Assembly (NCBI GenBank): GCA_028688995.1
Contig: JAQTXB010000001.1
Span: 62,001 to 126,000 of the forward strand
Source: Aliarcobacter sp.
Lineage (GTDB): Bacteria; Campylobacterota; Campylobacteria; Campylobacterales; Arcobacteraceae
Length of the DNA stretch: 64,000 bases
Reading direction: 5' to 3'
Both the position numbers and the translations under genes were made by a program. Below the pieces are notes generated by a model that saw only the letters and a list, made by a program, of their open reading frames with translations, ran no database searches and was not told where the DNA came from. Within the stretch, counting starts at the first letter, position 1, and every line of letters begins with the position of its first letter. This document shows positions 40,050-57,079 of the stretch, one piece after another.

Positions 40050-40090
40050 AAAACTCAAGTAAAATAACATTTTTACTTGGGTTATATTTT
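40050..40090. terminator. Bidirectional terminator purT / pilus-like operon
   Basis: CAAGTAAAA (40056-40064) pairs with TTTTACTTG (40071-40079) around a 6-base loop. A-rich and T-rich flanks serve both strands. It marks the end of the long minus-strand operon. Confidence 0.6.
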
Positions 40091-41149
40091 TATGTTTAAA
40101 GAGTACTGCATTCCTTCATTTTCTATATTAGTAACTTCAAACTTTGCATTTAGCATGTTTGCTAAATTTTTTGCTTCAAGAATAACTTTATTATCATCAT
40201 CTGCAACAAATAAGCTATTAATATTCTTAATTTCAAACCCATTATTTCGTACAATTAGTTGAATATTTGATTTTGATATTGAAACTGTTACATCTATTTG
40301 TTTTTGAATTTTTCCTTTTTTTAGCTCTTTTTTTATTAAATCTATACAAGACTGCTCAATAAAACAAGATAAAATATTTTCTAAATAAGCATTATTTAAA
40401 TAGATTGGTTTAACTAAAGCTGTATCTACAGTATAATCTATAAAAATTTTATATCTTACATTTGCATAAGTAAAGTTATCTGTTCTTCTTTTATGTAATT
40501 CTAAAAGGTAATTCAAATTATTTAGATTTGAGATTTTTTCAATGGGATGATTTAAATTATCTATTTCATACTCGAATTTCTTTAATTCCTCATACTGTAA
40601 AGCATAAGAATCTATTGTTTCAAAAATAATTGTACTATTAATTAAATCTTCAACACCCATTTTATTAATATTTTTATCAAATATATCTGTATTAAACATC
40701 TCAAGAAAATATTTAAGATTATAAAGTCTATTTTTTAAAATTAGAAGATTCTTTGTATCATTTAAATACTTATCTTTTAAATCTTTTGATAAATTAGTAT
40801 GCTTTAGATTTACTTCTAATAGTTGTAAGAAATTTTGATCATCAAAAATTAGATTTGTTACTTCAAACTTTTGCTCTTGAGAGCATAAAACCAAGACTTC
40901 TTTTAATTTATCTTTTACTATGGCTAAAGATTCATCCAAACATAGATTTATTGCTAATATTGATGGTTGAATATCTTCGTGTGTTTCATTAAAAACTTGC
41001 CGATTTAATCTTGTTTTCCCACCATTTTCACTTGAAAAGATCTCTGCAATATTAAAAAATCTATTGTATTTTGGTATTAATATCTTTAATTCATTTGATA
41101 TTTTCTGTAAATCAAATAAAACAGCCGATATATTTTCATTATTATTCAA
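40082..41149 (-). CDS. Degenerate HATPase-like protein at the end of the pilus-like operon
   Basis: This 355-residue cytoplasmic protein has a long helical N-terminal region and a C-terminal part that resembles a GHKL ATP-binding domain. Its NNAYLENILSCFIEQ corresponds to the N-box helix of a histidine kinase, and VRNNGFEI (Arg301-Gly304 region) to the G1 box, but the key Asn and Asp residues are missing and there is no clear H box. It is probably a non-catalytic relative used for protein contacts. Its ATG lies nine bases after the PilP-like gene stop, so it is the last gene of the operon. A regulatory role is only inference. Confidence 0.55.
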   Translation of the reverse strand: MNNNENISAVLFDLQKISNELKILIPKYNRFFNIAEIFSSENGGKTRLNRQVFNETHEDIQPSILAINLCLDESLAIVKDKLKEVLVLCSQEQKFEVTNLIFDDQNFLQLLEVNLKHTNLSKDLKDKYLNDTKNLLILKNRLYNLKYFLEMFNTDIFDKNINKMGVEDLINSTIIFETIDSYALQYEELKKFEYEIDNLNHPIEKISNLNNLNYLLELHKRRTDNFTYANVRYKIFIDYTVDTALVKPIYLNNAYLENILSCFIEQSCIDLIKKELKKGKIQKQIDVTVSISKSNIQLIVRNNGFEIKNINSLFVADDDNKVILEAKNLANMLNAKFEVTNIENEGMQYSLNIKI

Positions 41150-41158
41150 TTTTATGTC

Positions 41159-42187
41159 CTACATACAATTTTTATCAGAACTTACACTATCATCAATAAT
41201 TTGCACCCAATTGTTTTGCGTTGATACTTTCATCACATCACCTGATATTTTTTTATAAATGGTATCAATTTGAACCCAATCTTCAGCTTTTTGTTTTACG
41301 CTAAACTTATCATCTATTTTTAATACTCTAAGTATTTTTCCATTTAAATTACTATTATCTCTAACATTTAGATTTTGTTTTTTTACTGTATATAAACAGT
41401 TAGAGTTTGATTCATTAGCCTTTGCAATTTCTTTAGTTGGAACTTGCTCAAAAGCTTTTTTTATAGGATACTCTTCTTTTATTAAAGCTTTTACTTCTTC
41501 TTTTTTGATAGTTTTAGGTGTATCTTTTTTCTCTTCGGGTTTTTGTGTTTTAATTAAATCACTTACAGAAATTCCATAATTACTTAGATAAATTGTATAA
41601 CCATGCTCATCATCAAGTTTTTTATATAACTCTATACTTTTTGTTCTTGTATTTATACTTACTATTTTATGCTCAAGAATTGAATCACCCTCAATATATC
41701 GACCCTCTATATTAGCACTTAATTCAGCTCCATCTTTCTTTGTTTTAGCAGTTTTTGTAGTCTCATCTTCAAGTTTTAACACAACATAATCTTTTCCATT
41801 AAAAGAGTACATACTTTTAATTTTTAAATCTTTTAACTTTTTTGTTCTAGTGAAATCTGTTGTAAGTTTTGCCATATCATTTTGGTGTGTAAATACATAT
41901 TTTTCATAATCTTCTTGGGAAAGTTTTGGCTCTTCTTTTATTAATGCTTTATTCTGATTATTTACAATTCCTGCTGTTTGGTTAAGATCTTTTTTATTTT
42001 TTATTGCACTTACTTGTTCTTCTAAATAATCCTTTTCAAGGCCAGTAATTGCATTAAAAAACTCTTTTGATTGTTTATCTAAAACATCTAATTTATCAGC
42101 ATTTTGCATCTGATTTGAAATTGATTCTTCTGCTTGTAAATTAAGTGCTACAAAAAATAGAAATGTAAGTATCTTTATTTTTTTCAT
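41159..42187 (-). CDS. PilP/GspC-like periplasmic protein with SH3b tail
   Basis: This 342-residue exported protein has a signal peptide cleaved near residue 19 (LQA before EESI). The region to about 100 is helical and polar. A central beta-rich stretch (about 120-215) includes SMYSFNGKDYVVL, GRYIEGDSILEHKIVSI and IELYKK, which resembles the GspC/PilP domain that links the inner-membrane platform to the secretin. A Lys/Glu linker follows, then a C-terminal bacterial SH3 domain (LYTVKKQNLNVRDNSNLNGKI) that could bind peptidoglycan. It lies between the RCC1 protein and the HATPase-like gene. The PilP/GspC assignment rests on pattern and context. Confidence 0.55.
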   Translation of the reverse strand: MKKIKILTFLFFVALNLQAEESISNQMQNADKLDVLDKQSKEFFNAITGLEKDYLEEQVSAIKNKKDLNQTAGIVNNQNKALIKEEPKLSQEDYEKYVFTHQNDMAKLTTDFTRTKKLKDLKIKSMYSFNGKDYVVLKLEDETTKTAKTKKDGAELSANIEGRYIEGDSILEHKIVSINTRTKSIELYKKLDDEHGYTIYLSNYGISVSDLIKTQKPEEKKDTPKTIKKEEVKALIKEEYPIKKAFEQVPTKEIAKANESNSNCLYTVKKQNLNVRDNSNLNGKILRVLKIDDKFSVKQKAEDWVQIDTIYKKISGDVMKVSTQNNWVQIIDDSVSSDKNCM

Positions 42188-42205: not shown

Positions 42206-44350
42206 TTATTTAAATATAAATTCATAATTAAATCCACCAATATATGTAGGATATTTTATATAAAACTTACTATTATTTAACCATGTACCTGATGTCATTG
42301 TTGTAATAGACCCAGATTTTTTTTCCACTAAAAGAAAATCTTTGTTTTCATCATGTAAATTTGCGTTAAAAAGTGGTAATATCCACCCCGTTCCTGAAGG
42401 ATTAACCATATTCCCCCAACAATACATTTGGTCATTTACATCTATTCCACACATTGCATTATCATCTGATATAACTCTTATATCTTTCCACTTTATTTGT
42501 GAAATTGCATTCTCAAAAAGGGCATCATAGATTGAAGATATTTTATAATTACCTTTTAATTGATTATTACTATTTACCCAAACTATCCCATCACTACTAT
42601 CAGTAATATCTTTTGAAAAATCTACTGATAATATTCTTGCATCATTTGTTTCATCATAAGTAGCAGCATACTTATTTTCTTTTATAATTGATTCAACACT
42701 TGTTATTACTCCACTTGTTGAAATTCTATAAAAGTTTCCACTATTATCAACTGCCTTAAAATATTTTCTTCCTCCAACAATAGAACTAAAGTTTACTGTT
42801 GAATCTATTTTTATTGGGTTACAATAAGAATTTACTGAAGTTTCAGAACAATCTCCCCCGTTTGATAATCCCCATATATAAAGATTTCCCACAGTATTTA
42901 AACCTAAAATCTTTCTAAATGAAGAAGATTCAGTATAAGTAATATCTTTAAATCTAATTTCACTGCTTTTGGTTGGTACAAAAATATTTGTTTCTGTTTT
43001 ATTTCCTGTTCCAGCCCAACCACTTAAATTATCTTTACCCCAGAAATAAAGAATATATCCATCAACTGTATCAGTATCAACTCTACTAAGAACTAAATAA
43101 GTATTATCAATAGCTATTATTGTTTTTGCTTTATTTGTAATGCCGTTAAAGAATGTACTTCTATATAAATATTCCATATTATTTTTAGTACCTTTTAAAT
43201 AATTACTAAATTCAATATAATTATTTTCTAATACATCTTCTCCACCACAATATAGTTCTCCTTTAATAGTTATTCCACAAGTACTATGTGTATCTTCTGA
43301 AAAGAAATCTATAAAATTTGCTCTAAGAGGAGATGAATGGAAATGCTTATTATTAAAATTATTAGTATATGGAACTTCTTTACTATCATCATATACTATT
43401 GCTTTTGCATTAATCATTGTATTAACTATTAGATTGCCTGTGCCACTATTTCCTGTTGTATCTGTGTATGAATTATTTCCAATAGAAACTGTTTTATTTG
43501 TATTATTCCCCCATGTAAATATATCTCCATTAATAATTAATCCTCCACCTGAATTAGAAAATCTCATTAATGTTTTACCAACACTTTTAGTTGGATTCAA
43601 ATCAACTAGATTCTTTTCTGTATTTAAATACTGTTCTACAGAATTATTATTACCTTCTCGCAATATTTTCTGTCCAGCATACATAAAATTTTTACTTTTG
43701 ATTAACTCTAAAAAAATAGATGAAATAGTGCCGTTATCATTTAAAACACTGACATTTTTATCTACTATTAAATCATTTCCTAAAGAAAATTTATAATTAC
43801 CTTTTTCATACCAGTGTAATACAGCCTTATCATCTAAATAATACCCTGTAAATTCTCCTAAATTATTTTTATCAGTTGTTATATCATCCTCAAATTCCAT
43901 TTTATATTTTTCATCAGAAGATAATAATATTTCTACTTCATCATAATCATCATTATTATTTTTATTAAATTTTAATGGTGCTTTTGTATATGTTCTATAT
44001 TTATTTGAATAATAATAATCATATAAATTTGATTTTAGAACTCTATCACTAGAGGTAAAAGAACTTATTTTATGATTTGTCAAAATTTGAGTTTCTCTAC
44101 CAAAAGGATCAATTAGATTAAATCCCCTTGGTAAATAATTTAAATCTCTTAGGTTTGATACTGTAATTAAATTATTTGTTACTTTATTTGTTCCTTTTTC
44201 AGAAATATATTTTTTATAAGCAACTGCAATTTCTTCTTCTTTTTCTACAAGTTTTTTTACTTTTGCTAAAGTTAAAGAGTTAATATACTCATCATTAGCA
44301 AAAATATTTAAAGCTAAAGAGATTAAAATTAGCAACCTTAATAGAAACAT
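42206..44350 (-). CDS. Secreted RCC1-repeat protein, 714 residues
   Basis: This protein has a signal peptide (cleavage near residue 18, IFA before NDEY) and an N-terminal helical module (VKKLVEKEEEIAVAYKKYI) shared with three other proteins of the operon. The remainder has RCC1-type repeat phrases: GDIFTWGNN, GELYCGGED, YFWGKDN, GNLYIWGL and QMYCWGN. These suggest a beta-propeller. The last residues, KYPTYIGGFNYEFIFK, nearly repeat the end of the 1130-residue protein at 49991-53383. No membrane anchor follows the signal peptide. It is a good candidate for a surface or pilus-tip protein exported by the adjacent machine; that is inference. Confidence 0.7.
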   Translation of the reverse strand: MFLLRLLILISLALNIFANDEYINSLTLAKVKKLVEKEEEIAVAYKKYISEKGTNKVTNNLITVSNLRDLNYLPRGFNLIDPFGRETQILTNHKISSFTSSDRVLKSNLYDYYYSNKYRTYTKAPLKFNKNNNDDYDEVEILLSSDEKYKMEFEDDITTDKNNLGEFTGYYLDDKAVLHWYEKGNYKFSLGNDLIVDKNVSVLNDNGTISSIFLELIKSKNFMYAGQKILREGNNNSVEQYLNTEKNLVDLNPTKSVGKTLMRFSNSGGGLIINGDIFTWGNNTNKTVSIGNNSYTDTTGNSGTGNLIVNTMINAKAIVYDDSKEVPYTNNFNNKHFHSSPLRANFIDFFSEDTHSTCGITIKGELYCGGEDVLENNYIEFSNYLKGTKNNMEYLYRSTFFNGITNKAKTIIAIDNTYLVLSRVDTDTVDGYILYFWGKDNLSGWAGTGNKTETNIFVPTKSSEIRFKDITYTESSSFRKILGLNTVGNLYIWGLSNGGDCSETSVNSYCNPIKIDSTVNFSSIVGGRKYFKAVDNSGNFYRISTSGVITSVESIIKENKYAATYDETNDARILSVDFSKDITDSSDGIVWVNSNNQLKGNYKISSIYDALFENAISQIKWKDIRVISDDNAMCGIDVNDQMYCWGNMVNPSGTGWILPLFNANLHDENKDFLLVEKKSGSITTMTSGTWLNNSKFYIKYPTYIGGFNYEFIFK

Positions 44351-44841
44351 TATTTTATTTCCCTAGCCTTTGATACATAATCTACAAAATAAATGCTCTC
44401 ATTCTTTTCACTTTTTTTGATATTCCCAATATATGATAAAATTCCTTCTGCTGCTTGTAAGCCTTTTTCACTTTGGGCACTAACTTGAGTAACAATCAAA
44501 TATCTATCAAGACACATTTTTTTTGAATCTAAATATTTTATTTCATAATCTAAAACTGACATTCTTTCGAATATATCTTTTACCTTTGTTTCAAGTTCTT
44601 CTTTAGATATATATTGTTTTTCAACTGCTTCTATTTTATTTTTAGAGGCTTCAACTTTACTTTTTAAATTGTTAGTTTCGACTCTTTTTTCTTGTAAAAC
44701 AATTTCTAATTGCTCTTTTTCAATTGCTATTTTGTAATAAATAATAGTTTTATATGCTAAAAATAATATTGTATATCCAACAAGTATTGTTAATCCAATT
44801 TTACTAATGTATGAAACGGTTTTATTTGCAATACTAATCAT
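44350..44841 (-). CDS. PilO/GspM-like inner-membrane protein
   Basis: This 163-residue protein has a short cytoplasmic N-terminus, one membrane helix (about residues 14-33), a coiled coil (about 38-90) and a small C-terminal globular part. This is the shape of PilO and GspM, which pair with PilN/GspL in the assembly platform. It overlaps the preceding PilN/GspL-like gene by four bases and shares one base with the RCC1 gene after it, so it belongs to the core operon. Sequence signatures of the family are weak, and the call depends on order and topology. Confidence 0.55.
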   Translation of the reverse strand: MISIANKTVSYISKIGLTILVGYTILFLAYKTIIYYKIAIEKEQLEIVLQEKRVETNNLKSKVEASKNKIEAVEKQYISKEELETKVKDIFERMSVLDYEIKYLDSKKMCLDRYLIVTQVSAQSEKGLQAAEGILSYIGNIKKSEKNESIYFVDYVSKAREIK

Positions 44842-45593
44842 TTTGAAACCTCTTTATTAGTGCTAATACAATCAGTTAACTCTTTATATTTTTTTTCACT
44901 ATTATCAAGTAAGGTTTGCTGTCTTTTGGCTAATTGGGTCTCAATTTTTATCTCTTGATTTACATTATCTAAAGATTGTTGTTCAAATAATTTTGCAGTA
45001 GCAAAGTCTAAACCAAAAAATATTGTCCATAAAATGAATCCTATTAAAAATATTGAATAAAACATTTTTGTTGTGTGAGATTTAAAAGTATCTAATTCAT
45101 TAAGTGGTTTTACTAAATCATTAATTTCCCCCAATGATTTAGCAACTACTTCATTTTTCTCATTTTTTGTATTTTGTTTTAGAATATTTTCAATAGCACT
45201 TTTGTATTTTGAATTTATTACATAATAGATATTTTCTATAGCTCCACCACTTGAAAGCATTGCAATATGTTTTGTTATTAAAATCGATTTAATCATATCA
45301 TCTGTAATAAAATTCTGATTAATTTTTGCAGAATATACTGTTTTATGATTAAATAAAATTACATACTCATTTTCAGCTATATGTATCAAAAACTGATTTT
45401 TTTCTAAATACTTTTTTGATAAAAGATTTAAAGAAAAAACCTCTTCTGTTGTTTCATATCTTGAAAGAAAAACACTATACTTCTTAAAAGAGTTGTATGT
45501 GAACATATTTTGAGAAGAGGCAAACTCGTCATTTAAATAAAATGTTTCATTTTGCTCTTTTGTTGCAAAATCTGTTATTACTAATCGTACCAT
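44838..45593 (-). CDS. PilN/GspL-like inner-membrane protein
   Basis: This 251-residue protein has a cytoplasmic N-terminal domain of about 170 residues, a single membrane helix at about 177-197 (MFYSIFLIGFILWTIFFGL) and a short periplasmic coiled coil. GspL and PilM-PilN fusions have this layout: a cytoplasmic actin-like part that contacts the ATPase, then a bitopic part that pairs with GspM/PilO. The cytoplasmic domain is smaller than that of GspL, and I see no ATP-binding motif. It overlaps the ATPase gene by 13 bases. Confidence 0.55.
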   Translation of the reverse strand: MVRLVITDFATKEQNETFYLNDEFASSQNMFTYNSFKKYSVFLSRYETTEEVFSLNLLSKKYLEKNQFLIHIAENEYVILFNHKTVYSAKINQNFITDDMIKSILITKHIAMLSSGGAIENIYYVINSKYKSAIENILKQNTKNEKNEVVAKSLGEINDLVKPLNELDTFKSHTTKMFYSIFLIGFILWTIFFGLDFATAKLFEQQSLDNVNQEIKIETQLAKRQQTLLDNSEKKYKELTDCISTNKEVSK

Positions 45594-47272
45594 ACTTCCT
45601 CCCCTCTAATAATCGCCATAGCATCTTCTTTAGTGATTAAACCTTCATGATATTGAGCCATACAAGCCTTTTCAACAGTCATGTATTCCGCAGGATTTTC
45701 AAAATCTCCACCATGCCCTATTTTAAACCTTACAACCTCAGCAATCGGAACCCTATCTTTGAATCCAGTATTATTACACTCATCACAACCAACCTTTTTA
45801 AATCCACCCTCACCATCTTCTTCTTTACAGAATTTACATAATTTTCTAACTAATCTTTGAGATACAATCCCTCTTAAGTTATCGATTATATCCCCTTCAT
45901 TAATTCCAAGTGAACTTGTCATCCTTGAAACAGTAGCAGGTGCAGAGTTGGTATGCATTGTAGAGAAAACTAACTGACCTAAGTTAGATGCATTTACAAG
46001 TTGTGCTGCCGTTTGTGGTTCCCTTGTTTCCCCAATTAGGATGATATTTGAATCTTGTCTTAAAATATCAACAACTGCTTCTGGGTAACCATATTTAAAC
46101 TCTTCACTTGCACTTGCAAATTCAGATAAATCGATTTGGAAGAACGATTCATCAACATACTCAACTGGGTCTTCAATGGTAATAACATACTGTTGTTGTT
46201 TTGCCAATTGTTGTAAAAGAGCATACATCAAGTGTGTTTTTCCAGAACCTACTTGCCCTGTAATTAATATCATTCCATTTGCATATTTTGTTAAATTTGA
46301 CAAAATATCAACTGTTTCCTGCGGATAATTTAATCCTCTTAAATTATGAGAAACAACTCCTCGTCCACCAATCATCCTCATAACTAATGAGAAGTTTAAT
46401 TTTGAATTTATAAGCCCAAGTCTGAATTTAATACTTTTTTTACCATATTCATAATTTATAACCCCATTGATAGATTCGTAATCTGAATCCTCTTGGTCAG
46501 CCATAGTTACAAGTCTTCTTTTTAAAGTTTTTGCAATTGTAATTGGCATTGTTCCCATATCAACTTTAATACCATCAATTCTAAACCATAAGGTTGCATA
46601 TCTACTTGTTTTTTGAATATGTATATCTGATGCCCCAAGAAGGATAGCTTGTCCCATCATTTTGTCAAAATATTTATTTATCTCTTCATCATTTTCAGTG
46701 TCACTATTTGAATTAAAAATAATCTCTCTATCTTCTCCAAAAACAGAAGATAAAACACCCTCTCCTAAAACAACTATTTTTGTAAAATAGAATTTACTTA
46801 AAACATCAAAATCTAAGTTTACAACATCCCTAATACCTAAAACTTTATTTTTGATTTTTTTATCTTCCAAAGTTATGATATACATTGTTGTACATAACTC
46901 TAATTTTTTCTCATCTAATTGAAATGAAGTATCTTGGTAATATTTTGACAATTCACTATAACTTGCATAATATTCATACCCAAGTGTTCGAACAAACTCA
47001 GCATATTTCTCTTCATTGGCAATTAAATCTCCATATCCACCTTTTAATTGGAATTTGTCTTTAATCATATCTTCGATTAATATACCCAACTGAGTATCAA
47101 TATCTTCACTTTTACCTAAAAACTCAAGGAATTTATTTTTTTGTTTCTCAAAAATAGCCATATAATCTATTTTCTTTAATTCAACTCTTTTCTTTTTATT
47201 CTCTTTTTTTCCTTTTTTTAAAAAAGAGAATTTTGGAACATTTTGAAAGGTTGTAAGAATTTTTTTAATCAT
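45581..47272 (-). CDS. GspE/PilB-type assembly ATPase
   Basis: This 563-residue hexameric motor ATPase of the type II secretion/type IV pilus superfamily has Walker A GQVGSGKTH with Lys345, the Asp box VITIEDPVEY, Walker B LIGETREPQTA, the His box STMHTNSAPATVSRM, and the metal-binding tetracysteine (CKFC, then CDEC about 17 residues later) that marks extension ATPases rather than PilT. The N-terminal 180 residues are diverged, and I see no MshEN c-di-GMP motif. It is followed by GspL/M-like genes and preceded by a GspF-like gene. It would drive assembly of the pilin-like proteins of this operon. Confidence 0.9.
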   Translation of the reverse strand: MIKKILTTFQNVPKFSFLKKGKKENKKKRVELKKIDYMAIFEKQKNKFLEFLGKSEDIDTQLGILIEDMIKDKFQLKGGYGDLIANEEKYAEFVRTLGYEYYASYSELSKYYQDTSFQLDEKKLELCTTMYIITLEDKKIKNKVLGIRDVVNLDFDVLSKFYFTKIVVLGEGVLSSVFGEDREIIFNSNSDTENDEEINKYFDKMMGQAILLGASDIHIQKTSRYATLWFRIDGIKVDMGTMPITIAKTLKRRLVTMADQEDSDYESINGVINYEYGKKSIKFRLGLINSKLNFSLVMRMIGGRGVVSHNLRGLNYPQETVDILSNLTKYANGMILITGQVGSGKTHLMYALLQQLAKQQQYVITIEDPVEYVDESFFQIDLSEFASASEEFKYGYPEAVVDILRQDSNIILIGETREPQTAAQLVNASNLGQLVFSTMHTNSAPATVSRMTSSLGINEGDIIDNLRGIVSQRLVRKLCKFCKEEDGEGGFKKVGCDECNNTGFKDRVPIAEVVRFKIGHGGDFENPAEYMTVEKACMAQYHEGLITKEDAMAIIRGEEVWYD

Positions 47273-47283
47273 ATTTTATCTTC

Positions 47284-48300
47284 TTACTTATATAAAGTTT
47301 TAAAGGTAAATGTACTAATTACTAAATTAATAATATCAGAACCAATAATAACTGTAACAACCATTGCAATCATCCAGAACATAAATTTCCACTGTAAAAC
47401 CATATAATTAATATTTTTTTCATACATAGTATCACAAGTTTGATATAAGGCTTTTGTAACTTCTGAGAAACTTGTTTTACTAAGTTCTGATAGTTTAATA
47501 TCAGCTGTTATAATTGTAGGAAAGTTATATTTCTCAAAAACAATAAATAACTTCTTATTTCTATTTATAATATCTGCTAACTCAGCAAAAAATGGTCTTA
47601 GCCCTTGTTTAAAATAATCTTTTGATAAGATTAATGATGTTTTATGAAATGAAATACCAGCACTTAACATACCATTTAAAATTCTAAACATAAATCTTCC
47701 ATCTGAAAAAGCTTGTGTTTTAAAAACTTTATAAAGCCATGCTGGTTTATATTTTTCACAATATACATATCCAAAAAAAAGAAACGCTGTCACCAGTATA
47801 GATAAACCTAATCCACTATATGCAAAGTTATAAGTAAAATATTTTGGTATTCCTAAAAACTGTTCCACATCTGGATTCATTTTTTTCAATTGAATTAAAT
47901 CCTTTTGTAACATATCAAGATATAAAATGAGTCCATAAAAAGTAGATATTACGATACCTAGAGGTACAAATATTGGATTTATCATTTTTAATAATAGATT
48001 TGAGTTTGCTTTTTTAAATGATAATACAAGTTTTAATCCATCAATTGTACTTGTACTATTTACAACCAAACTAAATTGAAAATTATTTAGAAATTTATGT
48101 TTATGTAAAATTGCTTCAAGTTTATGTTTTCCCATTTCCATATCTTTTATCGCAGCAACTAATCTTTTTTTAAAATTTGTTTCCCTTGTAATTTGTTCAC
48201 TATATAATAATAGAGCTCTTCTTGTATTAGAACCATTTTCTAATTTTGTAACAAGATAATCCAATAAAAACTGCTCATATGGATCAGCGAACATACTCAT
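47284..48300 (-). CDS. GspF/PilC-type platform protein
   Basis: This 338-residue polytopic inner-membrane protein of the T2SS-F family has two cytoplasmic helical bundles separated by membrane helices at about 100-120, 155-177 and near the C-terminus (about 302-325). MFRILNGMLSAGISFHKTSLIL corresponds to the conserved Gly-rich LA-LL-aGl-l--aL motif of the second bundle. It forms the rotor-like base that the ATPase turns. It lies between the ATPase and secretin genes with gaps of 11 and 2 bases. Confidence 0.85.
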   Translation of the reverse strand: MSMFADPYEQFLLDYLVTKLENGSNTRRALLLYSEQITRETNFKKRLVAAIKDMEMGKHKLEAILHKHKFLNNFQFSLVVNSTSTIDGLKLVLSFKKANSNLLLKMINPIFVPLGIVISTFYGLILYLDMLQKDLIQLKKMNPDVEQFLGIPKYFTYNFAYSGLGLSILVTAFLFFGYVYCEKYKPAWLYKVFKTQAFSDGRFMFRILNGMLSAGISFHKTSLILSKDYFKQGLRPFFAELADIINRNKKLFIVFEKYNFPTIITADIKLSELSKTSFSEVTKALYQTCDTMYEKNINYMVLQWKFMFWMIAMVVTVIIGSDIINLVISTFTFKTLYK

Positions 48301-48302
48301 AA

Positions 48303-49982
48303 TTAAAAGCCTTTAATATTTCTAAGAGTAACCACATAAATGATTTCTCTTCTAACATAAGATTTTGAATCTGTTCCACCTATTGCAAAGCCTTCAATAG
48401 GAAGAACTCCTTGATAATTTTTTACATCATCATGAACAATAATAGAACCAACAATTGATGTTTCACCTAGTCTTACTTCCCTTGAAATATTATAACTTTG
48501 GTCATTGTATTGAGGAAGTTTTATCATTGTGCCATCTACACTTACTTCACCAAATTCTATAAGTTTTTTAATACTTGGAGCTATATTTAAGAATATTTTA
48601 TCCCTAGATATTTTTGCCATAGCAGTTATTGATGTTCCCTCTTTTAGAGTATTTACTGTTACATCTGATGTTCTTACATTTGTGTCTGCATCAATTGTTG
48701 TTTCAATTTTTTCTACATAATCAGTATTATCTGTAATTGATTGAACAGTTGGTATATTATTTTTTAGAACTAACGTATTTTTGCTATAATTTAATATCTT
48801 ACCTATTTCATTGTTTGCAGTTGCAGTTACTTCTAATAATCTTGTAGCATTATCACTTGCAAAACTAAATGTACCACCAGTTCCCAGACTTTTTGCTACA
48901 CCTGTTCCTGCATTTGTTTGTCTATCATCTGATATTGTTCCTATTCCATATTGTCTATTTTTATTTAAGATAAGTTCAATTCTTTCAAACTCTACAACTG
49001 CCTCTTTTGCAAAAGATGATTCATAAGCTTTTGCAATTGCTCTTACAGCATTTTCAACAGATGTTGTTGATTTTAAGAATATTAATCCACTTGATTTATC
49101 TATATGATATGTTGATATTTTATCTGTTGATATTATATTTTTTAACATTTTATCTAGCTCATCATAGAGTATGATTTGTGAATTATTTTCTACTTTACTT
49201 TCACCTGAAGATGATGATGAAGAGTTTGATGAAGAGGCAGTTGATTGATTTGATGATTTCATATCTAATAATGGAATATTTAATTCAATAACCATATCTT
49301 TATATCTTGAAATATTTATAGCTTCTTGATCATAATCTATATCTACAAATACATCTTTTGCATGAGATAGAGCATTTAAGGCATCTTTTAAATTTTTTGA
49401 ACTAATACTAATAACACTATTTTGGAAATCATCTCTATCATCAATATAACTTCCAATATTTACTGCATATCCAGATTCAGCAGTAATAAGTTTTATTAAC
49501 TCCTCAACTGAAATTTGACCATCAAGTTTAAAAGGAATATGTTCAATTGATTGTTTTTTTGTTTCACTTGCATTTAAAAGTTGAACTAAATAAATTGAAC
49601 CGCTTTTTTTAATAAAAAGTTCTTTATCTAAAACAGCATTTAAATATTGATTTAACTCTGTAATATTGTGTATTTTAATTCTACTTTTTGGTATTAGAAG
49701 ATCACTACTTTTCAAATAATAGAAATTACCATCAAGTATCTCCATCTCTTTTAAAATATCTCCTAATGATTTATCTTCTAAAATACTTATAAACTCTTTT
49801 TTAACATTTTTTTCATCAACTAATGTACCAGCATAAGATTCTTTTATGCCTTTATAGTCTTTTTTATCCAGAGAGTTCTTTGTACTATCAATCATCTCTT
49901 CATGATAACTTTTTGAACTGCAGCCTCCAAAAAGTATTACAAATAAGATTAATAGCAATTTTATATTTAATTTTCTTAGCAT
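48303..49982 (-). CDS. Lipoprotein secretin, PilN (type IVb) / GspD family
   Basis: This outer-membrane secretin of 559 residues has a lipobox with Cys21 (LFGGC), so it is a lipoprotein that can insert without a separate pilotin. N-terminal N-domains (about 60-330) contain a Ser/Asn-rich low-complexity linker at about 243-262. The C-terminal secretin core (about 330-555) shows VPTVQSITDNTDYV, LKEGTSITAMAKIS and REVRLGETSIVGS, a pattern close to R64-type PilN secretins. Length and lipidation also fit that type IVb group. It forms the exit pore for the filament or secreted proteins of this operon. Confidence 0.88.
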   Translation of the reverse strand: MLRKLNIKLLLILFVILFGGCSSKSYHEEMIDSTKNSLDKKDYKGIKESYAGTLVDEKNVKKEFISILEDKSLGDILKEMEILDGNFYYLKSSDLLIPKSRIKIHNITELNQYLNAVLDKELFIKKSGSIYLVQLLNASETKKQSIEHIPFKLDGQISVEELIKLITAESGYAVNIGSYIDDRDDFQNSVISISSKNLKDALNALSHAKDVFVDIDYDQEAINISRYKDMVIELNIPLLDMKSSNQSTASSSNSSSSSSGESKVENNSQIILYDELDKMLKNIISTDKISTYHIDKSSGLIFLKSTTSVENAVRAIAKAYESSFAKEAVVEFERIELILNKNRQYGIGTISDDRQTNAGTGVAKSLGTGGTFSFASDNATRLLEVTATANNEIGKILNYSKNTLVLKNNIPTVQSITDNTDYVEKIETTIDADTNVRTSDVTVNTLKEGTSITAMAKISRDKIFLNIAPSIKKLIEFGEVSVDGTMIKLPQYNDQSYNISREVRLGETSIVGSIIVHDDVKNYQGVLPIEGFAIGGTDSKSYVRREIIYVVTLRNIKGF

Positions 49983-49990
49983 CTGTTTCC

Positions 49991-52900
49991 TTATCTAAAA
50001 TAAAATGGATAATTAAATCCACCTATGTATGTTGGATATTTTAAAAATAATTTCCCATCATTGTAATATTCATCAAAAGACAATTGATTTGATTTTTCTC
50101 CATCTTGAGTAATAAATAACTTATTAATTGATGATATTTTATCTACATCATATAAAGAAGTACTTAAAATAGGCACACTTCTAGCCACATTTCCCCAGCA
50201 ATACATTTGTGAGGCATCTTCTATTCCTGTCATTGCACAAACAAATTTTTTATATGTCTCTTTCAATTTTACTTTCACATTATCTATTCCCCAAGATTCA
50301 TCATCTAGCGATTGACCATAATACCAAATATTTCCATTAGAATCAGATAAAGCCCCATACTCTCCTGCAACTAAATCTCTTACTCTCATTAAAATATGGA
50401 GTTTTCCATTATTATCAAGTTTTGTTCTTAATTTATATACATATTTTTCATCATTATTTTTTGAATATTTTTGACCTGTTTGATTACATGTCGATACATC
50501 TTGATTATAACTTTTCCCTAAATTTAATGTATAAACACCCGAATCATTTGTATCTCTTACTGCATCATGGCAATCATGAATAAAGCCATCTTCAGCAACC
50601 AATTCACTATTTAAAAAAACTTGAAATCTCTCCATATCCCATGAATCAATTTCATAGAAATCTAATTCAACTTCAACTTCATAATTTGCATAGCTTGTTC
50701 CAAAATCATAAGTTTTTTCAATACTTTCTTGCCCTAAAAGTAATCTTCCTAAAATTCTAGTAGGGTCAACTCTCTCTGTTATAGGCAATTTAGATGTATC
50801 TGCAGTTGTTTCAGTTGCTGTTGTAGTAGGAGGGATCCCAGTGCTAATAAGATTTCCCGGATTAAAATTTCTTCTTGCCGTGTAAGTTTTTAATGTCCAA
50901 GTTGATGCATCATTTTCAAAATTACTAAATGATAAAATTTTTCCATCACTTCTTGAAATTTTTATATTATCAACTCCCCATGATTCATTTGAAACTCCGT
51001 CATTTAAAGTACTTGAAAAACCTAATCTTACACGACCATTTGAATCTAAAGTTGTATCAATACTTATCTCATGTTTCTCTTCATTCCCACTCCAACCAGA
51101 ACCATCAACAATTAAAGATGTACCACCATCATTTCTATTAAGTTTATATTTTTTCTCAAATTTTTTAACTCCATTTATATATACTCTAAAATACTCATCA
51201 TCCCAAGAATCAATCTCATAAAAATTAAATGTAATATTTATACTTTTATTTGCATTCTCACTACCTAAATCAAATGTTTTATTCAAATAATCAACAGAAC
51301 TAGAACTAGAAGCAAACCTTCCTAAAAATGTTGTAGCATCTGTTCCTCCATTATAACTATTTGTTCTATTCCAACCTACGGTATCATCTTCAAAATCATT
51401 AATAATTTCTTCTATTTCATGATCCAATTTAAATATTGATACATTAGTAAAATTTGCTAGTTTATTACTTATCTCATTATTCGCAGTATTTAAATAATTT
51501 ATAGAACTATCAAAAATTTCATTTGAATTATTATCACATAATGAAGTTTCATTTGATTCTTTACAAGATAATAAAGTACTTGAACCTTTTAATTTTAAAT
51601 TTTCATCAATATATAGTAAGTATTCATTATTCTTGTTATCTTTATAATATGAAAGACTTATTGGTGTTCCTTCTAAAGAAGAATTAATAGATTCTATTTC
51701 TAAGTTTCCTTTAGTTTTATAATATGTACCATCTATTCCTTTTAATACAAATTCATTTGTATTTACAAATATTGCATCAGGATTAAATTGTTTTGAATTT
51801 GCAATTGCGGTAGGCTTTGTAATTACACTATCACCTCTTTCTCCCCAAATGTAAAAAATATTATTTGAATCTATCGCTCCAAAAGTTCTGCTATCTCTTA
51901 ATGCAAATATTTTTTTAAAAACTATATCTGAATTTACAGAAACTAAAGTTGGTGAATAAACAAAATAGAAATAATCACTAGAATCTATCCCTAAAGAACC
52001 CTTATAATTTTTCCCAATTACATAAATTTTTCCATTATCTGATAATAATGCAGTTACATCTTCTATCATTGCAATATCTTTTAAATATATTGCATTACTA
52101 TTTTTTATTTTTGATGATTTCCCTGTATAAATTGATATATTTCTTTTTAAAATATTACTTTCAACAGCTGTACTAGATAAATCTTCATAATATCTAGAAG
52201 TTATATTTCCATCACAATATAAATCTCCACCAAACTTGTAAGTGTCTGTTCCTTCTACATATTCAAAAATTTTAGTAATAGCACAAACATTACTTCTATT
52301 CATTGCCATCTTGTCAAACTTCACTCTATATGGGTTGTTATACCATTTTATTCCATTTAAATCATAAGTTGTTGTACCAATTTTTATATTATCAATCTGG
52401 GTTTTTAGCATCACTGGAGTGTTAATATAAGATGGAGATAATGTTGTATCTAATTGTCCATAAGAAGAAATTCCAGCTTTTTTATAATCATTATTTCCCC
52501 AACAAAATATATCTCCACTTGCAAGCATACATCCACCACTTTGTCTTATAAATAAATCTTTTGCATTTGGAATATAACTTGATATTTTTTCAGCATATAC
52601 AATTTCTTCTTCTTGCTGACTAGCAAGTTTTTCACCTTCTCCTATGGGAATCCAAGGGATTCCTAAATTCCCTTGATAATAGTATTCAAACCATTCCCCA
52701 TTTTTTTGTACATAAGCTGAAGCACCAATATTTGCTCTAATATACTGTAAGTCATTCCAGTCTTCTACATAAATTGGAGACTCTTGATAAATAGTTAAAG
52801 AAGTTCCATCTGTTTTGCAATATTTATATGTTAATTTTTCATTTCTTAACTCATAAAAATATTTCTCACTTGTACAATTTTGATTAGGTAACAATAACAA

Positions 52901-53383
52901 ATTAGCACTATCTTTTCTTAGTAAAGCTATCTCTTTTTGAACATCATTATATAAAACTTGAGTACCTTTTACTAATTCACTTTTTAAAGTATTTTTAGGA
53001 GGAATAGTATTTACTCTAAATACTTTATTTACATAGAAGTTGTATAAATATTTATATTCATCTTTATAATTCACTTCTGTTTCAATAGCTCCTTTTATAT
53101 AAGCATTATTATTTGCATCAAAGGTCACAACTATATCATTTGAAGTGATAGGATTCTTTTTATTAAAATCAACTCCTAAATAATCGTCAACCATAAGTTT
53201 TGTCCAATCTAAAGATTCAACATTTTTAGGTATTGTTCCTGTTTGCAAAATATATTTATTTAATGCAAGTGATATATATTCTTCCTTTTGAATAAGTAAT
53301 TTAACATCATTCATCAAAGATATATTTTCATTTGATGCGAAAACAAAGTTAAATAGTATTAGTATAGAAATTAGAGTTTTGAT
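49991..53383 (-). CDS. Large secreted RCC1-repeat protein with tandem adhesin-like domains
   Basis: Counted from base 53383 this protein has 1130 residues. The frame upstream of the first NTG codon (TTG 53317) encodes a good signal peptide (IKTLISILILFNFVFA, then SNEN), and AAGGTG lies six bases before the ATC at 53383, so a non-standard ATC start is likely. The helical N-terminal module shared with three neighbours follows (KLLIQKEEYISLALNKYIL). RCC1-like phrases include GDIFCWGNN, GDLYCDGN, IYVIGKN and FYIWGERG. Two beta-sandwich-like domains carry FYEIDSWD and ESWGxDN pairs. The end, LKYPTYIGGFNYPFYFR, matches the 714-residue protein. It is probably a surface or filament-tip adhesin. Confidence 0.7.
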   Translation of the reverse strand: MKTLISILILFNFVFASNENISLMNDVKLLIQKEEYISLALNKYILQTGTIPKNVESLDWTKLMVDDYLGVDFNKKNPITSNDIVVTFDANNNAYIKGAIETEVNYKDEYKYLYNFYVNKVFRVNTIPPKNTLKSELVKGTQVLYNDVQKEIALLRKDSANLLLLPNQNCTSEKYFYELRNEKLTYKYCKTDGTSLTIYQESPIYVEDWNDLQYIRANIGASAYVQKNGEWFEYYYQGNLGIPWIPIGEGEKLASQQEEEIVYAEKISSYIPNAKDLFIRQSGGCMLASGDIFCWGNNDYKKAGISSYGQLDTTLSPSYINTPVMLKTQIDNIKIGTTTYDLNGIKWYNNPYRVKFDKMAMNRSNVCAITKIFEYVEGTDTYKFGGDLYCDGNITSRYYEDLSSTAVESNILKRNISIYTGKSSKIKNSNAIYLKDIAMIEDVTALLSDNGKIYVIGKNYKGSLGIDSSDYFYFVYSPTLVSVNSDIVFKKIFALRDSRTFGAIDSNNIFYIWGERGDSVITKPTAIANSKQFNPDAIFVNTNEFVLKGIDGTYYKTKGNLEIESINSSLEGTPISLSYYKDNKNNEYLLYIDENLKLKGSSTLLSCKESNETSLCDNNSNEIFDSSINYLNTANNEISNKLANFTNVSIFKLDHEIEEIINDFEDDTVGWNRTNSYNGGTDATTFLGRFASSSSSVDYLNKTFDLGSENANKSINITFNFYEIDSWDDEYFRVYINGVKKFEKKYKLNRNDGGTSLIVDGSGWSGNEEKHEISIDTTLDSNGRVRLGFSSTLNDGVSNESWGVDNIKISRSDGKILSFSNFENDASTWTLKTYTARRNFNPGNLISTGIPPTTTATETTADTSKLPITERVDPTRILGRLLLGQESIEKTYDFGTSYANYEVEVELDFYEIDSWDMERFQVFLNSELVAEDGFIHDCHDAVRDTNDSGVYTLNLGKSYNQDVSTCNQTGQKYSKNNDEKYVYKLRTKLDNNGKLHILMRVRDLVAGEYGALSDSNGNIWYYGQSLDDESWGIDNVKVKLKETYKKFVCAMTGIEDASQMYCWGNVARSVPILSTSLYDVDKISSINKLFITQDGEKSNQLSFDEYYNDGKLFLKYPTYIGGFNYPFYFR

Positions 53384-54124
53384 TTAATTCACCTTTAAAA
53401 TTTTATTATCTATCAATTTTACATATCTTGAACTATTTTGTATAAAAATATAAGAGCCAACTTTCAAGTTTCTTAATTTTATATCATCTATTACAGATGA
53501 ACTCACTATTGTCACATTACCATCTTCGAAATCTTGCTTATTATATTCTATCCAGTTTGAAGCACTGTTATACCATCTAATAGAATTTTTATCATAATTG
53601 CAATATGTATTTTTTAAAGAACTTGAACAAGTTTTTGAAATATTTTGGCCTGAGCTTAGAATTTTAAAAACTGTTTTTGCTTCTGCTGATTTTAACTTAA
53701 ACTCTGTATAAGAATCAGCCAAAGCATTTGCAACATAAACATATGTGGAATTTCTGTATAAATCTCTATTATAAAGTTGTACTAGATAGTTTTCAATATC
53801 AAGATTTACATCTCTTTTTTTTCTATATTCATCTTTTGTGATTGCATATTTTAGTTGTAATTTACTATTGTCTTTAAAACCTATATTTTCGCCCATTCTA
53901 TTAACAACAGAAAAATTACTTCCTAAATAATCATCACTTATCAAATTGTCAATACTTGGTATTCTAAATTCTGTTAGAATGTATTTTTCAAAATTTTTAG
54001 CTATGTTTTCTTCAATCTCTATCATATTTTGTACATATAATGTATCTTGTTTTTGAGCTGTTAAATTATCAGTTGCAAAAGATGATATTATAAGAATAAA
54101 TAAAAATAGTATATTTCTAATCAT
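53384..54124 (-). CDS. Secreted module protein, 246 residues
   Basis: This protein has a signal peptide (cleavage near residue 17, SSFA before TDNL) and consists only of the N-terminal module found in the two RCC1 proteins: VQNMIEIEENIAKNFEKYIL, a DDYLGSNF phrase, an LYNRDLYRNST phrase and a Cys pair (TCSS and TYC) in the second half that could form a disulfide. Its stop codon is followed directly by the ATC that may start the large RCC1 protein. It overlaps the preceding gene by four bases. The function is unknown; it may be a minor structural subunit of the machine. Confidence 0.6.
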   Translation of the reverse strand: MIRNILFLFILIISSFATDNLTAQKQDTLYVQNMIEIEENIAKNFEKYILTEFRIPSIDNLISDDYLGSNFSVVNRMGENIGFKDNSKLQLKYAITKDEYRKKRDVNLDIENYLVQLYNRDLYRNSTYVYVANALADSYTEFKLKSAEAKTVFKILSSGQNISKTCSSSLKNTYCNYDKNSIRWYNSASNWIEYNKQDFEDGNVTIVSSSVIDDIKLRNLKVGSYIFIQNSSRYVKLIDNKILKVN

Positions 54125-54843
54125 TTTAATACCTTAATTCCATTAAGTGTTTTTACATATTTTATTCCATCAATATCATAAAGTAAAGCACCTTTTGGAA
54201 TAGAATCAAATTCACTTTTTGTATGATCAGCAATAACATTAGTAATTACAATGGGACCTGTTTTAAACTTATCAATGTGATAAACTATTAGATATGTATC
54301 TGGAACATAATCTATTCCTTCAAGTTTTTTTGTAAGTTGAATATAAATATGATTATTCTCTTTACAATTTATTGGTGTAGTAAAAACACTATTTGGACAA
54401 TTAATAATTGCTCCATTTTGTTTTATTAAATCATACAAATGTTTTGCGAATTCATCTTCAAGAAGAAAATTTATTTTTCCATTCCTAAAATAAGTTCTTT
54501 TTCTAAAAGTATTACTTTCATATAAAGCTTTTATTGAACTATCTGCTTTTACATCATCACTTATACCATAAGAAATTATTGTCAAACTACTATCTAAAGT
54601 AAGAGTTGAAGTAACACCAGTAACTGTTGTAGTAACATCTCCTATTAAACTTTTTATTTGAGTTAAATTAGGAATAGCATAATTTGTCAAAATATACTCT
54701 TCATATGCTTTTGCAATTGACTCTTCGTATAGAACAATTGATTTTACATCTAGTAGAACTTTTTGTCTATCATCAAAATTATTTAAATCAAAAGAAAAGG
54801 ATATATTTATTAAAATAAAAAACAAGACAACTACTATTTTCAT
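54121..54843 (-). CDS. Secreted module protein, 240 residues
   Basis: This paralogue of the next gene has a signal peptide (about residues 1-17, ISFS before FDLN) and then the shared helical segment (VKSIVLYEESIAKAYEEYIL), the LYESNTFRKRTYF phrase and a Cys pair (NCPN and INC). The C-terminal half is beta-rich. It overlaps both neighbours by four bases, so it is translated in series with them. No family is recognised. Confidence 0.6.
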   Translation of the reverse strand: MKIVVVLFFILINISFSFDLNNFDDRQKVLLDVKSIVLYEESIAKAYEEYILTNYAIPNLTQIKSLIGDVTTTVTGVTSTLTLDSSLTIISYGISDDVKADSSIKALYESNTFRKRTYFRNGKINFLLEDEFAKHLYDLIKQNGAIINCPNSVFTTPINCKENNHIYIQLTKKLEGIDYVPDTYLIVYHIDKFKTGPIVITNVIADHTKSEFDSIPKGALLYDIDGIKYVKTLNGIKVLK

Positions 54844-55574
54844 AATAAACTTTCCAATTCTTTATATAATCTTGTCTCCATTGCAGAATCATTTAAATAT
54901 AATCTTTCTTTTATTTTTGATTTAAAATAATCTTTTTGTCTACTTTTTAAGGTATCTGTATCAATTGATGTTTCACTACTTGTTAAAAAATTAAAGTAAA
55001 ATTTATCATAAGGTGTAAATTCAGTTAATATGCTTTCTAATACTTCTGTTTTATCTGGATTTGTAGTATATAAAATTCTTTCTGATAAAGATTGTATAGC
55101 TCTATTTATACTATTTTCAATATCTATATCTTTTATTGCACTATTTTTTTCTTCTTTCCCTACTGCAAAGATATATTTACCATTCGTAGGAGTTATATTA
55201 TTCATATTCGTTATATCTTTTAATTTTGCTTTTAAAGCTAAAAGTTTTAATTTCTCATCTTTACTTATTTCAATATTTCCAGCACTATTTACAAGCTCTT
55301 TATTTGTTAAATTACTATCTTTATTTCTATCTAATAATAAAACTTTCTCCCAATTTTCACCTTTTGGTAAATGGACAATTATTTCATCTCTTGTGATATC
55401 TTGTGGATTTTTGTTGTATTGTTTGGCTAGTAGGGTTTTGATTTCTGAGATTATTTCATAATTTTCTTGGATTTGTTTTGCTTCTTGAACATCACTGTAA
55501 GATTTGTACATTGCAGATGCTGAAAATATAGCTGTAACAATAAGAGCAGACGATAGCCATATATTTCCAAACAT
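54840..55574 (-). CDS. Membrane-anchored protein, possible minor pilin
   Basis: This 244-residue protein begins MFGNIW and has a hydrophobic helix at once (about residues 5-22), then a long polar helix (SDVQEAKQIQENYEIISEIKTLL) and a mixed C-terminal domain. The shape recalls a pseudopilin, but there is no basic leader, and Glu5 is absent after the only Gly (residue 3). It lies between the two pilin-like genes and the module proteins. It may be a minor pilin or a bitopic assembly protein; the sequence does not decide. Confidence 0.5.
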   Translation of the reverse strand: MFGNIWLSSALIVTAIFSASAMYKSYSDVQEAKQIQENYEIISEIKTLLAKQYNKNPQDITRDEIIVHLPKGENWEKVLLLDRNKDSNLTNKELVNSAGNIEISKDEKLKLLALKAKLKDITNMNNITPTNGKYIFAVGKEEKNSAIKDIDIENSINRAIQSLSERILYTTNPDKTEVLESILTEFTPYDKFYFNFLTSSETSIDTDTLKSRQKDYFKSKIKERLYLNDSAMETRLYKELESLL

Positions 55575-55696: not shown

Positions 55697-56383
55697 TTAT
55701 TGAACCACGCTTGCTGGCATATCTTTAAAATAAATAGTAAAAATTCCATCATCAAGACCTGTAGTAGCAGTCCCATTTTGTGCAGCTGCTCTATTTCCAT
55801 CAGGTACATCTCCGTTTAAAGTCAACTCTACTGCAGTTCCATCTGTCGTAGTTCTATCAATTGATGCTACAGATGCTAAATCACTTGCAATTTGAGACTC
55901 AAGAAATCCTGCATTGCCTGCTAACTGACCCAAAAATTGAACTCTTATTCCTGGTCTTTGTGTAATAGTTGTTGTTGATGGGCTAGTTGAACTACTTACT
56001 AAACTAATAATCATTCCTGGATTATCTTCTCCACCAAAAGATATAGCACTATATGCATTAGAACCTCTATTTGCAATACCTGCTGTAGTATTATTTCTTA
56101 CTTCTTGATTTATTTGATCAGCAAAGTATTCTCTTGTTGCTAAATCTGCTAATACTGTCACTGTAGCAGGAACTGCAGGTGTCACTGTAGCATCACCTGG
56201 AGTATTAAATACATCTCCTGCTCTTAAAGCTAATTGCAAACCATTTTTAATGTTGTTAATCTCTGTAATAACACTCGTTTTTTGAGCTATTCCCTCAATT
56301 TTATCACCAGTTCCACCAAATGTTTGGAACATATAAATCATTGCTGCAACTACTACGATTACCATCGCTATCAACTGTGGCAT
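55697..56383 (-). CDS. Leaderless pilin-like protein, 228 residues
   Basis: The start is fixed by AAAAAGGAT six bases upstream. The protein opens MPQLIAMVIVVVAAMIYMF, a hydrophobic helix beginning at residue 4, followed by a polar helical spine (EINNIKNGLQLALRAG) and a Thr/Ala/Gly-rich globular region. This is the layout of a mature type IV pilin, yet there is no charged leader, no Gly before the helix and no Glu5. Removal of Met before Pro would leave an N-terminal proline. Position ahead of the secretin, ATPase and platform genes makes it a candidate major subunit. There are no cysteines. Confidence 0.55.
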   Translation of the reverse strand: MPQLIAMVIVVVAAMIYMFQTFGGTGDKIEGIAQKTSVITEINNIKNGLQLALRAGDVFNTPGDATVTPAVPATVTVLADLATREYFADQINQEVRNNTTAGIANRGSNAYSAISFGGEDNPGMIISLVSSSTSPSTTTITQRPGIRVQFLGQLAGNAGFLESQIASDLASVASIDRTTTDGTAVELTLNGDVPDGNRAAAQNGTATTGLDDGIFTIYFKDMPASVVQ

Positions 56384-56467
56384 TTTTCTATCCTTTTTGT
56401 TAAATTTAACTTTTTTGACCTAAAGGTCATTATTATACAACAACTATTGTTCAGTTGCACCAATTTT

Positions 56468-57079
56468 CTATTTAAATATTATACAAACAAAAAGTCCATC
56501 ACTTTTGTTTGTACTTGCTCCAGTAAAATTTTTAGCTGAGGAATCATAAGATGTACGATTTAACTCTAATGTGCCAAATAACATCTTTTCACAAAATTCC
56601 CTACCTGAGAAACTCTCTGCAAAAACTGCTTTACTCATCAAAGTATTATTCCCTCTCATATCAACTAAAAGTTTATATCCACTTCCTGAAGATGTACCAT
56701 AAGTAGTATCTGTACTAGGAATAGGTATTAACTGCCATATAACTGAGTTAGACGGAAAAGTTAACTTTGAAGCATTAAAACTACCTGTTACATTATCAGT
56801 TGCACCATCAGCTGTAGCTGTTGTGTCACAATTTGTTGCAGATAAAGTATCTTTTATATTACCTGACAATATTCCTGAACATGACAATTTTTGAAAATTC
56901 ACATCTGTCAAATCCCCACCAGATTGAACAAAAGTATTCACAAACCCATCAACCATAGAAAACATTGACTTCGTGCTATCAAGTTCAGTTGAGATTGCAC
57001 TATCATCTGCTTCATATCTTGTTAATAAAATAATTGTTGCAGCAACAACAGCTATTATTGATGATACAAGATATGGCAT
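56468..57079 (-). CDS. Leaderless pilin-like protein, 203 residues
   Basis: This first gene of the operon has AAGGAACAAA directly before the ATG. It starts MPYLVSSIIAVVAATIILL, like the next gene, and continues with a polar helix and a Ser/Thr/Gly-rich domain that contains four cysteines (LSCSG, TNCDT, REFCEK, FVCII) in the second half; they could form two disulfides as in many pilins. It has no prepilin leader. It is probably a filament subunit, either major or minor relative to its neighbour. Confidence 0.55.
   Translation of the reverse strand: MPYLVSSIIAVVAATIILLTRYEADDSAISTELDSTKSMFSMVDGFVNTFVQSGGDLTDVNFQKLSCSGILSGNIKDTLSATNCDTTATADGATDNVTGSFNASKLTFPSNSVIWQLIPIPSTDTTYGTSSGSGYKLLVDMRGNNTLMSKAVFAESFSGREFCEKMLFGTLELNRTSYDSSAKNFTGASTNKSDGLFVCIIFK

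Follow-up and report, generated by a model that had tools for sequence, protein, structure and literature searches.

Can a type IV filament be built from subunits that never carry a prepilin leader? Type IV pilins are made as precursors, and their class III signal peptide, a leader whose last residue is invariably Gly or Ala, is removed by a prepilin peptidase before assembly (PMC10191384, PMC4471445). The question is raised by two genes, pil1 and pil2, in a 64,000-nucleotide stretch of an Aliarcobacter sp. genome (assembly GCA_028688995.1, contig JAQTXB010000001.1, positions 62,001 to 126,000 of the forward strand; hereafter the window). An initial annotation of the window described their products, which begin MPYL and MPQL, as pilin-like proteins without any prepilin leader, whose mature end, if they are true pilins, would be produced by removal of the initiator Met. 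Our analysis supports this interpretation, Met removal and filament assembly being inferred. We consider it likely that pil1 and pil2 code for the spine subunits of a type IV filament-like machine from which the prepilin leader has been lost, and that their nearest structural kin are the type IVb pilins.

The start sites leave little latitude. In the window, an AAGGA Shine-Dalgarno sequence lies directly 5' of the ATG of both genes, and neither upstream frame contains an ATG, GTG or TTG before reaching a stop. The DNA upstream of each orthologue was translated as well, for 25 distinct pil2 and 22 distinct pil1 sequences. All 25 pil2 orthologues start with MP at the same ATG, close to a Shine-Dalgarno sequence, and none has an alternative upstream start; in 10 of them an in-frame stop lies at most six codons upstream, the nearest being only two codons away. 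For pil1, residue 2 is Pro in 16 sequences, Ala in five and Gly in one, and 19 of the 22 are without an alternative start. Across both sets, in-frame stops often lie two to eight codons before the start (two codons before the ATG in loci L010 and L014, four to six in many others). Because the starts are conserved and the stops so close upstream, there is no room for a leader, and none of the orthologues shows a class III signal peptide, i.e., a leader ending in Gly or Ala before the hydrophobic stretch. Glu5, which is often but not always present in type IV pilins (PMC10191384), is missing as well: there is no Glu in residues 1-12 of any of the 25 pil2 and 22 pil1 sequences, residue 5 being Ile in every pil2 and Val, Leu or Ile in pil1. 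What had first been noticed in the window, namely clear ribosome sites, starts placed right before a hydrophobic helix, and the lack of a basic leader, a cleavage-site Gly and Glu5, is thus borne out by the conserved ATG and sequences of the orthologues. An upstream start with a cleaved leader, which the initial annotation had itself named as the result that would speak against it, is excluded by the conserved starts and in-frame stops.

Could these be ordinary prepilins all the same, with a leader initiated at an unusual upstream codon and cut after a residue other than Gly? In the window the two frames are open for 12-14 codons upstream, with a few basic residues, and another gene of the same operon, rccA, seems to use an ATC start. 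However, orthologues have in-frame stops down to two codons before the same ATG, the Shine-Dalgarno sequence is placed for that ATG, and Gly or Ala is not found consistently just before Met, which makes this explanation extremely improbable. A leader hidden behind a rare start codon was rejected on the in-frame stops.

The N-terminal helix itself is unusually constrained. Over its first 25 residues, pil2 is 88% identical in pairwise comparisons, compared with 43% over residues 55-228, while the plain membrane anchors of two other operon proteins reach 24-27%; conservation of the pil2 N terminus is therefore not due to chance. In pil1, the corresponding values for helix and head are 64 and 44%. 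Both proteins thus have an N-terminal helix far more conserved than the head, as expected of type IV pilins. Such conservation would not be required of a mere membrane anchor, and 88% identity would fit packing in the core of a polymer. When pil1 and pil2 were compared by hhalign, they aligned with an E-value of 8.5e-7, residue 1 onto residue 1, which identifies them at the profile level as paralogues. In the most divergent leaderless system (L038) the two N termini are still alike (MPLLIAMIFG and MPLLIAAVVG). Of the two, pil2 is probably the major subunit. Cys163 and Cys199 of pil1 are invariant among orthologues, a pair that would fit a disulfide formed outside the cytoplasm.

As for the fold, structure prediction had been proposed as a check, and it yielded a pilin-like architecture for both proteins. 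In the AlphaFold model of pil1 (10 sequences, pLDDT 76.8), residues 2-52 form a helix that is followed by an α/β head, and in that of pil2 (nine sequences, pLDDT 66.1), helices at residues 2-22 and 26-54 precede a head with strands; in these models both proteins therefore show the lollipop shape of type IV pilins, a long N-terminal helix with an α/β head. Foldseek candidates were realigned with VIA-align, a tool which warns that Z-scores of 7-8 may reflect a common arrangement. For pil2, type IV pilins fill the first seven rows, and no unrelated chain ranks higher. The best is TcpA (8uhf; Z 7.4, 158 aligned residues, 4.3 Å), followed by PilA1 (7.2), PilW (7.0), PilA1 again (6.2), TcpB (4.8, two entries) and FimA (4.1). 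For pil1, only two rows exceed Z 5, both of them type IVb pilins, TcpA (7.7, 146 aligned residues, 6.1 Å) and PilS (3fhu; 7.6, 124 aligned residues, 4.3 Å), the next row being unrelated at Z 4.2. Although Z-scores below 8 are no proof by themselves, the result gains weight because two separately predicted proteins agree on one fold family, and do so in a pilus locus. Both are thus predicted to carry a pilin fold, nearest to that of type IVb pilins.

Several points weigh against our interpretation. By Foldseek E-values alone, neither protein has a significant pilin match; confidence in the two models is moderate; and Z-scores of 7-8 fall in the range that may be just a common arrangement. Neither protein matches a Pfam or NCBIfam family or a PDB sequence, and profiles of pil1, pil2, the next gene g3 and the g4/g5/rcc family gave only chance matches when searched against the PDB. 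Likewise, hhalign found no significant similarity between the leaderless pilins and the canonical pilins of the related systems described below. No positively charged residue precedes the helix, and the topology is thus not guaranteed. In the type IV pili studied, Glu5 is needed for homopolymers, mutants failing to homopolymerise (PMC4471445). Its loss in both subunits would therefore need compensation. Some of these points, i.e., the missing family match, the Foldseek result and the moderate model confidence, could be taken to mean that pil1 and pil2 are signal-anchored membrane proteins of a kind other than pilins, encoded in one operon with a type IV filament machine, their fold match being a coincidence of helix and sheet. 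We regard this as quite improbable since, after realignment, type IV pilins take the top seven rows for pil2 and the top two for pil1, the operon holds no other pilin candidate, and related systems keep a canonical prepilin gene close to their secretin and platform genes.

The genomic setting points to a type IV filament machine as well. pil1 and pil2 stand at the head of a 14-gene operon (Table 1), whose gene order is kept in most of the 14 relatives fetched. The ATPase matches T2SSE at 2.6e-65, as well as PilB and GspE entries in the PDB, and qualifies as an extension ATPase of the GspE/PilB family. The secretin is recognized by the MshL model (3.6e-12, under the equivalog cut-off) and by BfpB (8.4e-5). 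The platform protein matches T2SSF at 0.0011, which is under the Pfam cut-off, and is homologous to the platform genes of loci with canonical prepilins. Against the PDB, the profile of the PilN/PilO-like protein gave only chance matches, and outside the family the profile of the GspL-like protein gave only noise. By gene content, then, the locus encodes a complete machine of the type IV filament kind. Because a class III signal peptide was looked for and is absent, we do not call pil1 and pil2 type IV pilins sensu stricto but leaderless pilin-like proteins of a type IV filament-type machine. In one relative (L106, G015:C1:755286-757618), the platform gene is split by ~1.3 kb though pil2 is present, probably by an insertion.

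Table 1. Genes of the conserved operon (positions in the window)
Gene	Position	Strand	Length	Description
pil1 (MPYL)	56468..57079	-	203 aa	Leaderless pilin-like protein, begins MPYLVSSIIAVVAATIILLTRYEADDS; 51-residue N-terminal helix and α/β head; conserved Cys163/Cys199
pil2 (MPQL)	55697..56383	-	228 aa	Leaderless pilin-like protein, begins MPQLIAMVIVVVAAMIYMFQTFGGTGDKIEG; N-terminal helix nearly invariant
g3	54840..55574	-	244 aa	Third leaderless protein starting directly with a hydrophobic helix; putatively minor-pilin-like
g4	54121..54843	-		Secreted, type I signal peptide (by eye); helix motif common to g5, rccA and rccB
g5	53384..54124	-		Secreted protein, family of g4
rccA	49991..53383	-		Large secreted protein with RCC1-type repeats; candidate tip adhesin
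Secretin	48303..49982	-		Outer-membrane lipoprotein, MshL/BfpB-like
Platform protein	47284..48300	-		Inner-membrane protein, T2SSF/PilC-like
Extension ATPase	45581..47272	-		GspE/PilB family
Bitopic assembly protein	44838..45593	-		Cytoplasmic domain, one helix, coiled coil; layout suggests a GspL/BfpC-like protein
PilN/PilO-like membrane protein	44350..44841	-		Putative, by layout
rccB	42206..44350	-		Second large secreted RCC1-repeat protein
Periplasmic protein with SH3-like end	41159..42187	-		Weak Pfam match; conserved in the operon
Last gene of the conserved operon	40082..41149	-		No family found

The same gene content could also serve secretion. Here pil1 and pil2 would have a pilin fold without forming a surface pilus, being membrane-anchored, pseudopilin-like parts of a secretion machine (for the RCC1 proteins, for example) that drives substrates out but makes no stable fibre. 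The two very large secreted proteins in the operon are in keeping with this, as is the single ATPase gene, which means that the locus encodes no retraction motor, and type II secretion systems work with short pseudopili. Set against this are the near-invariant helix, which fits a polymer core, and the nearest folds, which belong to the pilus-forming type IVb pilins. We therefore judge a secretion machine unlikely.

In g4, g5, rccA and rccB (window 54843-49991 and 44350-42206), a type I-like signal peptide is followed by a shared motif, KEExIAxAxExYIL...IP, which resembles the latter half of a pilin helix together with the loop that follows. These proteins might thus be pilin-like domains exported by ordinary signal peptidase, and secreted proteins similar to them are found in a related locus (L101). 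The start of rccA is apparently ATC (53383-53381, minus strand), directly after the g5 stop, in eight of 12 loci: the non-standard start is shared by the window, L050, L051, L053, L054, L056 (where it is ATT), L059 and L062, the others having ATG. From this ATC there is a full in-frame signal peptide, along with a AAGGTGGAT-like Shine-Dalgarno sequence, and rccA probably uses a conserved non-standard start codon.

Is there anything in this system for a prepilin peptidase to cut? No prepilin peptidase gene was found among the operon genes, and a scan for class III signal peptides found none in the operon or on the coding strand of the 14 fetched relatives; it does pick up prepilins at other places in this genome. 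Two prepilin peptidases of family A24 are encoded on another contig of the 2.95 Mb genome. Since 101 of the 104 family genomes have at least one A24 peptidase, irrespective of the operon, its presence says nothing about this system. With such peptidases elsewhere in the genome, the case for independence is that there is nothing to cleave, not that they are absent.

The leaderless operon is limited to one family, the Arcobacteraceae, in all the samples searched. pil2 is present in 25 of the 104 family genomes, the named relatives being Aliarcobacter, Arcobacter and Poseidonibacter, and no relative turned up in a search of plasmids. One environmental carrier of the operon, Poseidonibacter lekithochrous A1R12 (L031), is an isolate. 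A metagenome-assembled genome titled Helicobacter pylori PMSS1 (L036) has an Arcobacteraceae-type operon, and its title is probably wrong. Platform-protein profiles led to five distant systems in other Campylobacterales (L100-L104), which share homologous secretin and platform genes with the leaderless systems and, where the contig is long enough, have ATPase and PilN/PilO-like genes in a similar order. Unlike the leaderless systems, they encode, near these genes, canonical prepilins with basic leaders ending in Gly or Ala and with Glu5. With a slash at the cleavage site, these are MRKA/ISMVEVILV in L100, MKKG/ITLIEIILA and MKKG/FTILEVILA in L101, MKKG/FSLVELVIV and KKA/FTMVELVVT in L102, KRLRGG/FTSLELILT in L103, and MRKG/MTLVELTFV and MRKG/MTLIETTFV in L104. 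L102 sits in a genome (G051) that also has a divergent leaderless system (L038/L060), and in which one A24 peptidase was detected.

The secretins of the leaderless and related systems align over their full length with E-values of 1e-39 to 1e-61. A single clade unites the leaderless systems in the secretin and platform trees (support 100/99) and in the ATPase tree (90/92). The related systems are not firmly placed in the first ATPase tree; in the second, two paralogues of this genome lie nearer the leaderless clade than the canonical relatives do. What we claim from the trees is limited to the leaderless systems making up one clade. As the simplest reading of these trees, the leaderless pilins probably arose once, by loss of the leader, within Arcobacteraceae, the pilins themselves being too diverged for their sequences to show descent.

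How might such subunits be assembled? The Sec machinery would insert pil1 and pil2 each as an uncleaved signal anchor, N terminus in and C terminus out; this orientation is suggested by the charge balance, there being only the N-terminal amine ahead of the helix and net acidic residues behind it, and a short uncharged N-terminal tail in that combination favours it. Deformylase and methionine aminopeptidase would then take off the initiator Met, as suggested by residue 2, which is always Pro, Ala or Gly, residues that permit removal: methionine aminopeptidase acts on Met-Pro, Met-Ala and Met-Gly. The mature end, which would be Pro in pil2, may lie close to the position of residue 1 in a processed pilin. 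As a secondary amine, an N-terminal Pro is comparable to the N-methylated residue made by prepilin peptidase. When the leaderless pilins are aligned together with the canonical relatives, Pro2 comes to lie at approximately mature residue 1 and Ala6 at Glu5, a register that is only suggestive since structural alignments shift by one or two residues. In pil1, Pro is not required, as six of the 22 sequences have Ala or Gly. The ATPase and platform protein would polymerise the helices into a filament exiting through the secretin, with the RCC1 proteins probably serving as tip or adhesive subunits. We lean towards the specific proposal that this is a bacterial type IV filament in which the major and the second subunit are mature from the start, with no leader, prepilin peptidase, N-methylation or Glu5, and in which methionine aminopeptidase exposes a Pro that replaces the processed, methylated end.

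A literature search, which covered few subscription journals, found no report of leaderless type IV pilins or of this operon. Among known systems, type IVb pili (TcpA, PilS of Salmonella Typhi, Bfp) are similar in the predicted fold of the head, the BfpB-like secretin lipoprotein and the clustering in one operon. The mature N terminus of TcpA starts with Met, which can be likened to the Met-starting end here. Unlike in type IVb pili, there is here no leader, Gly/Ala cleavage site or Glu5, and no prepilin peptidase gene in the operon. The secretin's match to MshL recalls MSHA pili. MSH loci lack a peptidase gene and are thought to borrow one from another system (PMC6668835), whereas here there is no leader to cut. 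The Sulfolobus thread is a prokaryotic surface filament made without class III signal peptidase; its subunit is cut by signal peptidase I, and it is described as distinct from that cell's filaments of the type IV pilus superfamily (PMC9715654). In contrast to the thread, a type IV machine is present here.

The role of pilin N-methylation has been called enigmatic (PMC4471445). Detection programs rely on the class III motif, and pil1 and pil2 match no Pfam or NCBIfam family, so motif-based searches for pilins miss such systems. A leaderless machine with leader-bearing relatives, both kinds occurring in the single genome G051, could be used to ask what the leader, its cleavage, methylation and Glu5 are for.
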